From the NCBI GenBank assembly GCA_016207825.1, contig JACQZI010000009.1:1-13248 (forward strand): a DNA stretch of 13,248 nucleotides, written 5' to 3'. Shown in pieces: positions 1,561 through 12,763 of the stretch. The stretch comes from Planctomycetota bacterium. GTDB taxonomy: Bacteria > Planctomycetota > MHYJ01 > JACQXL01 > JACQZI01. Position numbers and translations under genes: made by a program. Below the pieces are notes generated by a model that saw only the letters and a list, made by a program, of their open reading frames with translations, was not told the origin of the DNA and made no database searches. The number at the start of each line of letters is the position of its first letter. Positions within the stretch are counted from its first letter, which is position 1.

Positions 1561-1896
1561 TTATTTCCAATATTCCTTTATCACGTGCGTAATCATATAA
1601 ACCACCCAGCCGATGGCGCACAGGAAGTAAATGATGCGGATGGGTTTGCGTGGATTCTTTAAACCCAGATGCACCAGGACCAACGCCGGAACCCCGATAA
1701 AGGTGAAGAATAAAAGAGGCATGGCAAGCATTTTAATGATACGCTCCATAACCGGGCTTGTCTCCACCGGCGGCTCACCTCCGAATAGGGCAATGCCGGC
1801 AATAATCAGGATAAACAATACCCCGACGGAAATATACGAGATGGTGATAATTTTAAACCACTTTGCTGGTTTCGTCTCTTTATTCATTTCTTCCAT
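1561..1896 (-). CDS. Small three-helix membrane protein, function unknown
   Basis: 111 residues with three predicted membrane segments: about 17-39 (ISYISVGVLFILIIAGIALF), about 57-77 (LAMPLLFFTFIGVPALVLVHLGL) and about 87-105 (IIYFLCAIGWVVYMITHVI). There is a lysine-rich N-terminus and a basic KNPRKPIR loop between helices 2 and 3. I do not recognise the family. No good Shine-Dalgarno is present. The only purine run, GAAAAA, lies 5 nt before the ATG and belongs to the end of the palindromic repeat at 1908-1988. A second ATG at codon 4 follows GGAAGAA but the spacing is too short to prefer it. It could be co-transcribed with the 1995-2483 gene if the intervening palindrome does not block RNA polymerase. 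Confidence 0.7.
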   Translation of the reverse strand: MEEMNKETKPAKWFKIITISYISVGVLFILIIAGIALFGGEPPVETSPVMERIIKMLAMPLLFFTFIGVPALVLVHLGLKNPRKPIRIIYFLCAIGWVVYMITHVIKEYWK

Positions 1897-1907
1897 TTTA
1901 CTTTTTC

Positions 1908-1988
1908 TTAACAGGGACTTGTAATAGACTTATACGAGACTAAGAAAATAAATTCGTCTCTTAAGAGTCTCGTCAAAGTCCCTGTTAA
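1908..1988. repeat. Palindromic repeat element, copy 1
   Basis: About 81 bp bounded by a perfect 13-bp inverted repeat, TTAACAGGGACTT (1908-1920) and AAGTCCCTGTTAA (1976-1988). Bases 1909-1988 match 2494-2573 without a difference that I can see. Similarity continues one gap further on the left through TTTTTC (1902-1907 against 2488-2493). Inside is a second inverted repeat, ACGAGACT / AGTCTCGT (1934-1941 and 1965-1972). Read on the - strand, the inner stem directly follows the outer left arm, while the right side has a 12-nt unpaired stretch. It lies 6 nt after the stop of the 1995-2483 gene and about 12 nt before the start of the 1561-1896 gene. There is no T tract, so it is not a standard terminator. 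Confidence 0.9.
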
Positions 1989-1994
1989 TATTTC

Positions 1995-2483
1995 TTAATA
2001 TTTATATAATGGTATATCGCATCTTAAAGACGGGGAATTCGGGAAAACCGCTTCTATCCCCACAGACAAGAAATATTCCAATCCCGCCTGCTTAAACCCG
2101 GATTTAATGTATATCTTTGCATCATTTTCCATAATTTCGCTATCCGCAAGATTTATCCATTTATCAGACAGCTTTTCCATTACGCCCATTTTATACTGCG
2201 GTTCGGGGCTAAACAGCTTAATATTCACCATGCATTGGGGAGGAATCGCTATCTTATTGCCGTCATTATCCAGGAAAGAGAGCTTCAGGTAAAGAGCATA
2301 TTCCTCGGTCAGGTTATCAGGGATATCGGATGTCTTAATTATCTCTGCCTTAATTTGCGCAAATGAGGCGGCAACAGGCAACCGGGTATCGGCGGGGCGG
2401 CTGAGATTAACCAGCACGATTATCCCGATAGCCAGGAACAAGCCGAATCCGGCAATCAGTTTTAATATGCTTGATGGTTTCAT
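1995..2483 (-). CDS. Membrane-anchored extracytoplasmic protein, function unknown
   Basis: 162 residues. A short basic N-terminus (MKPSSILK) precedes one hydrophobic segment at about 7-27 (LKLIAGFGLFLAIGIIVLV). There is no cysteine lipobox or clear cleavage site, so this is probably a signal anchor with the remaining 135 or so residues outside the cytoplasm. That part has alternating strand-like segments (YALYLKLSFLDNDG, CMVNIKLFSPE, YFLSVGIEAVF), suggestive of a beta-sandwich, and two cysteines that could pair. I do not recognise the family. The gene is flanked on both sides by identical 80-bp palindromic repeats, which is its most striking property. There is no Shine-Dalgarno, only GAAAAA 4 nt before the ATG, contributed by the repeat edge. 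It may move or be lost as a unit by recombination between the repeats (inference). Confidence 0.75.
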   Translation of the reverse strand: MKPSSILKLIAGFGLFLAIGIIVLVNLSRPADTRLPVAASFAQIKAEIIKTSDIPDNLTEEYALYLKLSFLDNDGNKIAIPPQCMVNIKLFSPEPQYKMGVMEKLSDKWINLADSEIMENDAKIYIKSGFKQAGLEYFLSVGIEAVFPNSPSLRCDIPLYKY

Positions 2484-2493
2484 ATCATTTTTC

Positions 2494-2573
2494 TAACAGG
2501 GACTTGTAATAGACTTATACGAGACTAAGAAAATAAATTCGTCTCTTAAGAGTCTCGTCAAAGTCCCTGTTAA
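2494..2573. repeat. Palindromic repeat element, copy 2
   Basis: Identical by eye over 80 bp to 1909-1988 and in the same orientation. The terminal inverted repeat here is 12 bp, TAACAGGGACTT (2494-2505) and AAGTCCCTGTTA (2561-2572). On the - strand it starts 9 nt after the stop of the 2583-4901 gene and ends 10 nt before the ATG of the 1995-2483 gene. The distance between equivalent points of the two copies is 585 bp. Confidence 0.9.
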
Positions 2574-2582
2574 ATACGCATC

Positions 2583-4901
2583 CTATTTTAAATTATAACT
2601 GTAATATAATTGTAAATTTAATATGCCAAATGTCGTGGAGTATAACCTCCCGCCGACCGAGCCCCAGGCGCAGACCGGGTCCCAGCTTCCGTCATTATCT
2701 CCACCTACCCTCTGGTGCTTGAGTAAGACATCCTTTAAGGTGTTATTCCATTTCGTCCAGTATTCTGATTTGGTTTCCCTATCCAGATAGTCGCTATGAA
2801 TAAGCGCCATGGTCATGAAATACCAGTAAAACTGGTTAAGGATATTGTTTTCCAATCCGATAACGGTCCTATCCTGCTGTAATAAGCCTTCATTGCCGGA
2901 AACGCCGCGGTAGGGCTCCCAGACCGGAAGATATTTCATCAGGAACTCAGTTGCCTTTTTATCCGTATCCATATATTTATTATGGTTTAGGAGACTGCGC
3001 AGTAAAAACCGGGAGGCAATTCCGGTTGCCATGCTGTCATACCCGCCGAAGCAGTAAGAAGGCCCTTCCAGAAAACAGACCCTGCCGGTGGATTGGTTTG
3101 TCAGGCGCTCAAGATAGATTTCCACATCCCTTGACTGCGATGGCGGAATCTTCAATCCGGCTGCCTCGCTTGCCACAAATAGCGACATAATATAATAAAT
3201 GCTCGTGCCGATATCAGTCGGTTCCAGGTAAAACGACCACGGGTAATTGAGTTGCACGCGATAATTACGCGCGTGCTCCAGCGCCTTATTAATAGAAGGG
3301 AGCAACGTTTCATCCTTTGTCATGGCATAGGCTTCAACTAAAGCAAGCGTTGAAATACTATGGTTATAACGCCGGCAGATAGGCTTAAGCACCATAGATT
3401 TTGCTTTTTCCTGATTAGCCGCATCCAGGTTAATCGCTCCGGTTGAATCCTGGCAGCTCAGGATATAATCGAGTCCCGCCTTGACAAAAGCCCGGTATTT
3501 GCCGTATTTATGAGTTGAGCCCGAACCCATGAAAGAAAGCATTGCCAGACCGGTCGCCGCGGCATCCATGAACTGGTCTTCATTGGTAAAATCAGGCAGG
3601 TTGAATTCCTTGCCGGAGAACGGATTAAGCCCGGATAAACTCCACCTGCCGTCGAGTGACTGATGGAGTGCAAGCCAGAGAAGCCCGCGTTGGATAGCTT
3701 TTTCGGTTTCCTCATTGCCGCCATTCGCCTCAAGCGCTTTTACTTTATCTTTGCCGAAGCGGTTGGCAAAGAGCGTCGGCACTTCCCCAATTGCGCTTTC
3801 ATCAGGTGCGTTCGTTACCAATAATTTTAGCAGGCTCTTAACGCGCCAGTCTGTTTCATTATAAATAATCGTTTGCAGGGTAATGCCAAAATCACGGCAG
3901 TCCATTTCCACCAACGCCGCGGCTATATTAAGCCTGATTTCCGCTGATTGTGAATTACGCATCAGCTCTACCAGCGCTTCTATAATCTTATTACGCAATT
4001 CCGCCGGGAACAACTTTATATTAGAAATATTGGCAAGCGCCTGTATCTTGCAAATAGCCGGTTCGGCATCCTCGGTCTCTAACGCGGCCAACAGCTGTTT
4101 TACGCAATCATCAAGCGGTGTTTTGGCAGGCGGGAATCGGGAAGCCTGCCGCCCGATTAGTTTCGCCATAAATGCGCGGGCAGCCGGATCGTAGCTGTTG
4201 AACCGGTCATTTATCAGGTAATCGATTGTTTCATCATAGTGCTTATACAAATATTGGTTTAAGGCTTCTTCCAGCTCCCATTGGAGGGTGAAATCATTTT
4301 CATTCAACACCAGGAGCAGGGTATCGAACGCCTTTCGCGTATCATATTTTGTAATAAATTTCATGGCACTTTGGCGCAGTTCCCAGCCGCCTGACTGGTC
4401 CGCCAACGGAATCGTCAGGTATTCTATGGCATTGGCGATAAGGTCAGGATGCTCCGCGGGAATTCCGCCCAGTGCGTTTATTGCCGCCTGCCTGACCATT
4501 AAATCATTGTCTTTCAGGGTCTGGATTACGGCGCCGTGAATCAGCCCGCCCTTATTACCCATATCGCTTAAGACATTGATAAGCAGGGCGCGGATAGCAG
4601 GATTTGGGAAGTTTATGGCTTTGTCATTCATCCAGGCAACGGATTCATCATCGGTAATACTTGATAGGGCGGTGAAAAGGGCAGACTGGATTTCCTCGCT
4701 TCTCTCTTCCGCCAGCGTCATTAACAGCCTGACTGCGGAGAGATTATTGAATCTCCCTATCTTTTCTATTGAGGCGATTTTCCCCGCCGAATCGCCGTTT
4801 GACAGGTCATTGGCAAGAGTTTTCAAATCCGGCCCATCAGGGAAAACAGGCAATGCCAATATGACGCCCATTAAAACCAACAATAAGCATTTTATTTTCA
4901 T
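2583..4901 (-). CDS. Secreted HEAT-repeat / prenyltransferase-squalene-cyclase-like barrel protein
   Basis: 772 residues. A Sec-type signal peptide (MKIKCLLLVLMGVILALPVFP, about 1-21) is followed by HEAT-like alpha-helical repeats over about 25-370 (for example LMVRQAAINALGGIP near 134-148 and AEIRLNIAAALVEMD near 320-334). From about 395 there is an alpha/alpha-barrel region like that of prenyltransferase / squalene-cyclase repeat proteins: RGLLWLALHQSLDGRWSL near 405-422, SCQDSTGAI near 482-490, and a final DGSWDP...GRLYSTTFGILNLQLYY near 737-767. I see no DxDD cyclase acid motif, so terpene cyclisation is unlikely and a binding or carbohydrate/protein-processing role in the periplasm is possible. 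The start overlaps the upstream metal-exporter gene by 4 bp (ATGA), with AAAGGAA about 12 nt upstream, indicating translational coupling. Proteins of this design are common in Planctomycetota; their function is not established. Confidence 0.82.
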   Translation of the reverse strand: MKIKCLLLVLMGVILALPVFPDGPDLKTLANDLSNGDSAGKIASIEKIGRFNNLSAVRLLMTLAEERSEEIQSALFTALSSITDDESVAWMNDKAINFPNPAIRALLINVLSDMGNKGGLIHGAVIQTLKDNDLMVRQAAINALGGIPAEHPDLIANAIEYLTIPLADQSGGWELRQSAMKFITKYDTRKAFDTLLLVLNENDFTLQWELEEALNQYLYKHYDETIDYLINDRFNSYDPAARAFMAKLIGRQASRFPPAKTPLDDCVKQLLAALETEDAEPAICKIQALANISNIKLFPAELRNKIIEALVELMRNSQSAEIRLNIAAALVEMDCRDFGITLQTIIYNETDWRVKSLLKLLVTNAPDESAIGEVPTLFANRFGKDKVKALEANGGNEETEKAIQRGLLWLALHQSLDGRWSLSGLNPFSGKEFNLPDFTNEDQFMDAAATGLAMLSFMGSGSTHKYGKYRAFVKAGLDYILSCQDSTGAINLDAANQEKAKSMVLKPICRRYNHSISTLALVEAYAMTKDETLLPSINKALEHARNYRVQLNYPWSFYLEPTDIGTSIYYIMSLFVASEAAGLKIPPSQSRDVEIYLERLTNQSTGRVCFLEGPSYCFGGYDSMATGIASRFLLRSLLNHNKYMDTDKKATEFLMKYLPVWEPYRGVSGNEGLLQQDRTVIGLENNILNQFYWYFMTMALIHSDYLDRETKSEYWTKWNNTLKDVLLKHQRVGGDNDGSWDPVCAWGSVGGRLYSTTFGILNLQLYYSYNLK

Positions 4902-10912: not shown

Positions 10913-12763
10913 ATGTTATTAGCGGAACTCAAAAAACATACGGATGCAATATCCGCGCTTGTTATTTCCCCTGACGGAAAGCATATGGCATCCGGCGGCA
11001 AAGATACTGTCATCCGATTATGGAAAATCGATGGCGACAAGTTCACGCCGTTGCGCGAGTTCGCCGGACATACCGATGCAATAAACACGCTGGCGTTTTC
11101 CGCTGATAATAAATATCTTGCCTCAGGCAGCAAGGATACCACCATTATCCTATGGGATATTGAAACAGGAGAAATATTAAATACGGTAAAGGATTATACC
11201 CAACCGGTACTGGCGGTAGCCTTTTCACCTGACGGCAAATACATGGCATCCGGCAGCTGGGATAATACAATAAAACTTTGGTCATGCGAAACTGGTGAAT
11301 GCGTAAAAACATTATTAGGGCATACCGACTGGGTAAGAACGATTGCCTTTTCGCCGGACAGCAAATATCTTGTTTCGGGAAGCAGCGATAAAACAATAAA
11401 ATTATGGTCTCCGGAAAAAGGCGAGTGCCTGAAAACGCTCAGTGCCCATTCGCAAGCCGTCCTTCGCGTTTGTTTTTCTCCGGACGGTAAATATATCGTA
11501 TCGGGCGGCATGGATAATACCGTAAAAATCTGGTCGGCTGAAAAACTGATTATCTTAAATAATCTACCGGGTCATACCCAGCCGATATCAAGCATCGCGT
11601 TCTTCCCTGACGGGAAACACATTATTTCAGGAAGCGAAGACATGACCATCCGCTGCTGGACCATCGATAAAGGCAAATGCATAAAAATATTGAATTCCGG
11701 CAATAAAATAATGTCGTTAGCCGCATTGCCGGACGGCAAGCACGTGATTTCCGGAAACGCCGACGGCACGCTGCAAACCTGGACTATTGAGACGGGCAGC
11801 TTTATCAAAAGCCTTCCCGGGCATAGTAACTGGGTAAAATCGCTGGCTTTTTCCCCTGACGGGAAAATCATCGCTTCCGGCAGCCACGATAACATGATAA
11901 AGCTCTGGTCAGCAGAAAAGCATGCCTTCATGAAAAATATCGAAGGGCATGCGGATTCGGTAATGTCCGTATCATTTTCCAAAGACGGCAAATACCTGGT
12001 TTCCGGCGCCGATGATAAAAGCGTGCGGGTATGGAATGTTGAAACAGGCGAATGTATAAAAACACTGCGGGGTCATACCGAATCGGTCCAAAGCGCTTGC
12101 TTTTCCAATGACGGGAAAATAATTGTATCAGCCAGCAGCGATAAAACAGTAAAAATATGGTCCGTGGAAAAATGGGAGTGCATAAAAACTTTGGAAGACC
12201 ATGCCCAGCCGGTTTGGGTGGTTGCTTTTTCCCCTGACGGGCAATATCTGGCTTCAGCCGGGAATGATAATAACATAATCTTATGGACTGCCGGTAATTT
12301 TGAATTCTCAAAAATACTTAAAGGGCATGTCGGCTGGATTAAAACGCTGGCATGGTCCCATGACAGCAAATATTTGGTGTCCGGGGGAAACGACATGACT
12401 GCGCGCCTATGGTTAATCCCCTTAAGCAAATGCATGCAGATATACAAAGGCCATTCACGCTGGGTATTATCTGTCGCGTTTTCAATCGACGGTAAAATTA
12501 TCGCCTCTGCCGGCGCAGACAATGCGATTAAAATATGGAGCCCCAATTCCGATAAATGCCTGAAAACCATCGTTTCCGACAAAGATAATTACCAAGATGG
12601 AATAGAAACATCCATAACGCCAAAATCAACATGGGACACTTCATACATGAAGAAAAAGATTAGCGCGGTAAAAGCGCTGGCTTTTTCGCCTGACGGATAT
12701 CTTGTTTCCGGTGGAGAAGACAACATGCTTAAAATCTGGTCTCTTTCTGAACTATTAATATAA
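10913..12763 (+). CDS. WD40 protein with 14 repeats (two seven-bladed propellers)
   Basis: 616 residues made almost wholly of WD40 repeats. I count fourteen: they begin at about residues 9, 53, 95, 137, 179, 221, 264, 304, 346, 388, 430, 472, 514 and 583, mostly 42 residues long, with the pattern H-T-x-x-V...F-S-P-D-G-K-Y-L-A-S-G-S-x-D...I-K-L-W. Repeat 7 lacks the leading His, and repeat 13 carries an insertion of about 26 residues (556-581). Fourteen repeats fit two stacked seven-bladed propellers. There is no signal peptide, membrane helix, kinase, NACHT or protease domain, so it is probably a cytoplasmic scaffold. It starts 17 bp after the SCP2 gene without a visible Shine-Dalgarno (TTTTGTTTTCCT precedes the ATG). 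No better in-frame start exists, and the first repeat begins at residue 9. The partner is unknown; operon position suggests a link to the SDR/SCP2 genes (inference). Confidence 0.92.
   Translation: MLLAELKKHTDAISALVISPDGKHMASGGKDTVIRLWKIDGDKFTPLREFAGHTDAINTLAFSADNKYLASGSKDTTIILWDIETGEILNTVKDYTQPVLAVAFSPDGKYMASGSWDNTIKLWSCETGECVKTLLGHTDWVRTIAFSPDSKYLVSGSSDKTIKLWSPEKGECLKTLSAHSQAVLRVCFSPDGKYIVSGGMDNTVKIWSAEKLIILNNLPGHTQPISSIAFFPDGKHIISGSEDMTIRCWTIDKGKCIKILNSGNKIMSLAALPDGKHVISGNADGTLQTWTIETGSFIKSLPGHSNWVKSLAFSPDGKIIASGSHDNMIKLWSAEKHAFMKNIEGHADSVMSVSFSKDGKYLVSGADDKSVRVWNVETGECIKTLRGHTESVQSACFSNDGKIIVSASSDKTVKIWSVEKWECIKTLEDHAQPVWVVAFSPDGQYLASAGNDNNIILWTAGNFEFSKILKGHVGWIKTLAWSHDSKYLVSGGNDMTARLWLIPLSKCMQIYKGHSRWVLSVAFSIDGKIIASAGADNAIKIWSPNSDKCLKTIVSDKDNYQDGIETSITPKSTWDTSYMKKKISAVKALAFSPDGYLVSGGEDNMLKIWSLSELLI

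Follow-up and report, generated by a model that had tools for sequence, protein, structure and literature searches.

Intergenic palindromes in a planctomycete genome are most likely gene-less copies of a mobile element carrying a GxxExxY gene

Two palindromes on either side of one gene in a 13,248-nucleotide stretch of DNA from a Planctomycetota bacterium (the window) are most likely gene-less copies of a mobile element that carries a gene for a GxxExxY protein. In the reading that we favor, with a probability of roughly 0.6, they are non-autonomous members of a mobile family with stepwise ends, TTAACAGGGACTTnnAnGAGACTTnnAnGAGAC, the gene-bearing form of which encodes a GxxExxY nuclease that would move them in trans. 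The distribution of related copies supports the assignment of both palindromes to a dispersed, mobile, MITE-like family, and the GxxExxY nuclease is a candidate for driving their movement.

The palindromes are 100% identical over 80 base pairs (1909–1988 and 2494–2573) and have the same orientation, as had been read from the sequence alone. They take up about 80% of both gaps around the intervening gene, which agrees with the earlier claim that they fill them, and are surrounded by a row of minus-strand genes (Table 1). An 80-bp match between sites whose outer flanks differ far exceeds what chance would produce. Neither palindrome contains an open reading frame of its own. The terminal inverted repeats of 12–13 base pairs and the inner repeat of 8 base pairs that had been described before capture only part of larger, stepwise arms of 35–36 nucleotides, which are 77–78% complementary and separated by a loop of nine nucleotides. 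A long hairpin is predicted from either strand, with an RNA folding energy of −33.5 kcal/mol (z about −7; none of 200 shuffled sequences folded equally well) and a z of −6 for DNA folding. A search of the window against Rfam produced no match, nor did searches of phage and plasmid collections with the element. Elsewhere in the window, a 616-residue open reading frame at 10913–12763 is composed of repeated units of about 126 base pairs; its translation resembles WD40 repeats, and it appears ordinary.

Table 1 Features of the window around the two palindromes
Feature	Position	Strand	Remarks
Element copy 1	1908..1988	.	Palindrome, TTAACAGGG...CCCTGTTAA; extra T at 1908 included
Element copy 2	2494..2573	.	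Identical to copy 1
Left end, copy 1	1908..1943	+	TTAACAGGGACTTGTAATAGACTTATACGAGACTAA; degenerate end, first step assigned to A-type by eye, AATAGAC replaces AAGAGAC
Right end, copy 1	1953..1988	-	TTAACAGGGACTTTGACGAGACTCTTAAGAGACGAA; C-type first step
Left end, copy 2	2494..2528	+	
Right end, copy 2	2538..2573	-	
Gap 1	1897-1994		Holds copy 1, on one side of ORF 1995-2483
Gap 2	2484-2582		Holds copy 2, on the other side of ORF 1995-2483
162-aa ORF between both copies	1995..2483	-	No Pfam family; kept at the same place in G001
111-aa flanking ORF	1561..1896	-	No Pfam family
772-aa HEAT-repeat protein	2583..4901	-	82% identical ortholog in G001, the anchor for the site comparison

Each end of an element consists of the stepwise motif named above. 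The arms in the window contain CAGGGACTT, followed by AGAC or GAGAC at intervals of about 11 base pairs. The general form of the arms, with TTAA ahead of it, is CAGGGACTTnnAn-GAGACTTnnAn-GAGAC, in which the steps recur roughly every 11 base pairs. In 29 complete elements, the base directly outside CAGGG is A at 57 of the 58 ends, and the next bases outwards are A (45), T (31), and T (43). Among 160 halves chosen for the presence of CAGGGACT together with an initial GAGAC, 90% have T at position nine, and their second step is less strictly kept. In 20 of 22 elements (P = 6e-5), one end has A before the first GAGAC and the opposite end has C; the count covers elements with A or C at both ends and treats them as independent, an assumption that tandem relatives weaken. 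The letters of the first and second steps are not correlated (P = 0.55). The arms of one element are not more similar to each other than to the arms of other elements, and selection for perfect hairpin pairing was rejected for this reason. This and the unlike end letters point to left and right ends that differ from each other and are read by a protein.

Diverged whole copies were identified by BLAST and pattern searches elsewhere in the window's genome (78% and 75% identity), together with half copies. By BLAST, six of the eight further genomes in the order contain the family, which was not found at E ≤ 0.001 in the other 32 genomes sampled. The search for further copies that the sequence-only reading had proposed thus yielded more than the two in the window, and the pattern that it had set against mobility, only two copies that are conserved in distant relatives, was not found. 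Many copies are half elements, tandem arrays also occur, and the copies are scattered among unrelated genes. Among the matches listed from a pattern scan of genome contigs, the same stepwise ends occur in AT-rich DNA of WOR-3/Stahlbacteria, Mcinerneyibacteriota, bacterium STE_202 MAGs, and Planctomycetota/Brocadiia, although wrongly binned contigs may be behind some of the sharing among these MAGs. On inspection, the pattern matches in viral contigs appeared to be coincidental hits within coding DNA.

The genes neighboring the palindromes have the same order in G001, a genome of the same genus. Both orthologous gaps of G001 lack a CAGGGACTT element, an outcome that the sequence-only reading had named as a sign of mobility. 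In gap 2 of G001 there is a half copy of a different stepwise repeat, AACCACAGAATAACACAGAACGACACAGAAT; a third repeat type, around CACGGATTAAG / TACACTGATTAAGCGGATT, occupies gap 1. A complete copy in contig C88 of G001 is missing from the orthologous site in contig C30 of the window's genome (G000), where another gene is located. Therefore, the occupancy of sites by elements turns over within the genus. No anchored flank was found in G001 for the copy in contig C10 of the window's genome. The compared sites hold other sequence, and no cleanly vacant site with a precise junction was found. The check for target-site duplications gave a negative result: none was present in the 29 complete elements, and no offset or length exceeded shuffled sequences at P < 0.05. 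The earlier description of the palindromes as MITE-like therefore holds with regard to their mobility and dispersal; however, the label of a classical MITE does not fit elements that have neither a target-site duplication nor a known transposase at their ends. The complete copy in C88 of G001 (L011:1400-1590) is positioned just downstream of a promoter-like TTGACA...TATACT, so that the 5' leader of the following gene would include it.

In G003, a genome of the same order, the ends of the family bracket a 139-residue gene in contig C26. The same ends and palindromes bracket the gene for a protein 74% identical to it in the WOR-3 MAG UBA3073. The bracketed gene encodes a GxxExxY protein (TIGR04256 / PF13366 PDDEXK_3), and the ends of the palindromes in the window are of the same type as those at both of these loci. 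The next-closest GxxExxY proteins, from G004:C237 (65%) and G080:C78 (59%), were found without regard to the ends of their loci; their genes are flanked by AACAGGGATTAACGAGATT / AACAGTGATTAAAGAGATT and AACAGGGACTTGCATCGGACT / AACAGGGACTTTAATCGGACT, respectively. The motif ACAG[GT]GA[CT]T is present on both sides of all four genes of this subfamily and of none of 54 other GxxExxY genes (Fisher 2.4e-6); since their ends had drawn attention to two of these four, the two independent members alone give 2/2 versus 0/54, or 1/1540. It brackets none of 43 control genes and none of 27 four-helix genes. The idea that every GxxExxY gene has ends of this type was rejected, as they characterize one subfamily only. 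GxxExxY genes are the only ones found between these ends; screening for transposase domains covered part of the end-adjacent proteins. In the WOR-3 MAG, a tandem array of palindromic units of about 119 base pairs follows directly downstream of the GxxExxY gene (L119/L297).

The presence of the GxxExxY unit varies as well, in support of its mobility: G005, a genome of the same family, has no GxxExxY gene at the junction that holds the unit in G003. The gene is also lacking from genomes that carry the ends. The window's genome has no GxxExxY gene of the matching subfamily, and the same applies to many genomes with such ends, which are incomplete MAGs. Broken GxxExxY genes with frame breaks are located in the window's genome at G000:C10:36790-37144 and G000:C27:69153-69501, in addition to intact genes of other subfamilies.

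The AlphaFold model of the GxxExxY protein has a pLDDT of 94.5. The structures closest to it are SSO0001, the Cas4 protein Pcal_0546, lambda exonuclease, and MGME1, with modest TM-scores of 0.46–0.56 on the query. Residues E34, Y37, D73, and K85 are invariant in 38 proteins, and E83 is nearly so. The likeness of the predicted fold and the conservation of the predicted active-site residues indicate that GxxExxY is likely a small PD-(D/E)XK nuclease similar to Cas4 and lambda exonuclease. Among other resources, PADLOC assigned it to no defense family, PHROGs returned only a weak endonuclease match, and a search of the PDB by sequence found no relative. To our knowledge, neither GxxExxY (TIGR04256) nor the four-helix/S23p family (TIGR02436) has an assigned function.

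We infer that the GxxExxY protein would recognize the end repeats of its own element and act on it, with an extruded or single-stranded hairpin as the probable substrate, and that it would move gene-less copies in trans. Insertion would occur without duplication, into gaps that adjoin stop and start codons. In the window, a single recent element may occupy both gaps as two copies, owing to either local transposition or gene conversion between the copies. Several observations count against this mechanism. The copies in the window's genome are without a visible source of the enzyme, since that genome has no matching GxxExxY gene, and many other genomes with the ends, which are incomplete MAGs, lack one too. 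None of the compared sites was cleanly vacant, many copies are half elements, the correlation between ends and proteins given below is modest, and two members of the subfamily of four came to notice by way of their ends. Unrelated four-helix genes are also located between inverted repeats, so that GxxExxY could be a passenger.

A rival reading is that the repeats themselves are primary, as hotspots or mobile DNA moved by replication slippage or palindrome recombination of the host, with GxxExxY and four-helix genes as passengers or regulators. It would account for two unrelated protein families in the same kind of bracketed repeats, for the many half copies and tandem arrays, and for different repeat types in the same slot of related genomes. 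However, it is unlikely, because the end type tracks GxxExxY subfamily and the unlike ends are a sign that left and right are recognized specifically. That the palindromes are not mobile, and began as a regulatory hairpin that gene conversion copied locally, has very little probability. Strong hairpins in the gaps of a co-directional row of genes, and a copy just downstream of a promoter-like sequence, are compatible with such a role, which could have been acquired later. Nevertheless, a regulatory hairpin as the primary origin is refuted by the orthologous gaps of G001, which conserve no copy; the scatter among unrelated genes points the same way, as do the arms of an element, which resemble each other no more than they resemble those of other elements.

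The palindromes resemble bacterial MITEs in being short and non-coding, with inverted ends, dispersal, and presence or absence between relatives. Their ends also occur around a GxxExxY-coding unit, which may be the counterpart of the autonomous, transposase-coding element that shares its ends with a MITE. Short inverted ends, dispersal, and lack of coding sequence could also indicate MITEs of an insertion sequence with an ordinary transposase. This is improbable, as the 29 elements lack target-site duplications, no conventional transposase parent was found among the part of the end-adjacent proteins that was screened, and GxxExxY genes are the only ones found between the ends. REP/BIME repeats moved by a RAYT (Y1_Tnp) transposase are likewise intergenic palindromes that lack target-site duplications and are sometimes clustered (PMC3733652). 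Y1_Tnp genes are present in most of the genomes studied here, and clusters of opposite orientation occur in places (L119). By contrast, REP/BIME palindromes have a GTAG or CGTC tag at one end (PMC3733652), whereas those in the window have TTAACAGGG at both ends, without either tag and without a RAYT there. The examined Y1_Tnp loci have none of the ends, the nearest being 2.2 kb away, which makes RAYT-driven movement a very improbable explanation.

The preferred reading, in which the palindromes derive from a GxxExxY element, may be one case of a wider pattern. When the left flank was compared with the reverse complement of the right, the median inverted-repeat score was 15 for the other GxxExxY genes and 8 for controls, and 53% versus 0% scored at least 14 (P = 4e-8); the control genes were taken from the same loci, and the tests were made mostly on MAGs of few lineages. 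Flanks of other GxxExxY genes have different motifs, such as AACCACAGATTAACACTGATAAACACAGATA, AACACGAATAACACGAATTAGACGAAT, and AACCACAAAGGCACGAAGGGCACAAAGA, the stepwise character of which was read by eye; by a crude autocorrelation score, their rhythm was not significantly separated from that of controls (means 18.0 and 16.9). The similarity of ends follows that of the proteins to a modest degree (Mantel rho 0.20, a value reached in 35 of 2000 permutations); in 15 of 33 cases, the ends of the closest relative by protein rank among the three most similar ones. Genes of the S23p-type four-helix family TIGR02436 are also bracketed by inverted repeats (median score 18 versus 8 for controls), and their rhythm is separated from that of controls (22.4 by autocorrelation), mostly with a period of seven. 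In the lineages that were searched, a genome typically holds many GxxExxY and many four-helix/S23p genes.

It can be put forward tentatively, as a possibility short of even odds, that GxxExxY genes constitute a large, unrecognized class of prokaryotic mobile elements, in which a Cas4-like nuclease moves DNA with subfamily-specific stepwise inverted ends, that gene-less copies like those in the window are scattered in genomes, and that S23p/four-helix elements with a 7-bp rhythm, including rRNA intervening sequences, are a parallel class. TIGR04256 and TIGR02436 would each be tied to stepwise inverted repeats of their own and to gene-less copies, which provides a concrete functional hypothesis. 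Many short intergenic repeats might be accounted for by the link as well, and the long-standing question of the spread of rRNA intervening sequences becomes accessible to testing. The gene between the ends belongs to the GxxExxY / PDDEXK_3 family; however, this is known only as a family name, and no element or function, nor any link to such repeats, was found in the literature searched, which included few subscription journals.

In the 23S rRNA intervening sequence of Coxiella burnetii, tandem heptamers precede the ORF of the S23p four-helix protein, and mobility of such intervening sequences has been proposed (PMC4990558). Like the elements described here, it is small and hairpin-forming, with a short ORF of unknown function beside tandem short repeats. 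However, it is located in rRNA, is processed by RNase III, and has another protein family and a heptamer rhythm instead of one of about 11 base pairs. The elements in the window are gene-less, lie between protein-coding genes, have no Rfam match, and are not members of the intervening sequences. The TAACTGA repeats of Beggiatoaceae are similarly abundant, stepwise, and intergenic, and mobility has been considered for them, but they are 7-bp direct repeats; the text describing them has no link to S23 or four-helix proteins (0 occurrences; PMC4679880).

The brackets of four-helix genes (L342-L371; for example, L345, L348, L355, and L371) mostly have a 7-bp rhythm, as in TTACAAGTTACAGGTTACAAG, CAGTAAGCAGTAAGC, and CAGACTACAGACCACAGAC. 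At the junction in G005 that corresponds to the GxxExxY unit of G003 (G005:C303, L386), there is a short palindrome of 7-bp rhythm, ATTGTTATATTGTTTTAATG...AACATTGTAAC, between genes that, as read from their sequences, appear MarR-like and metallo-beta-lactamase-like; different repeat types thus share intergenic slots.
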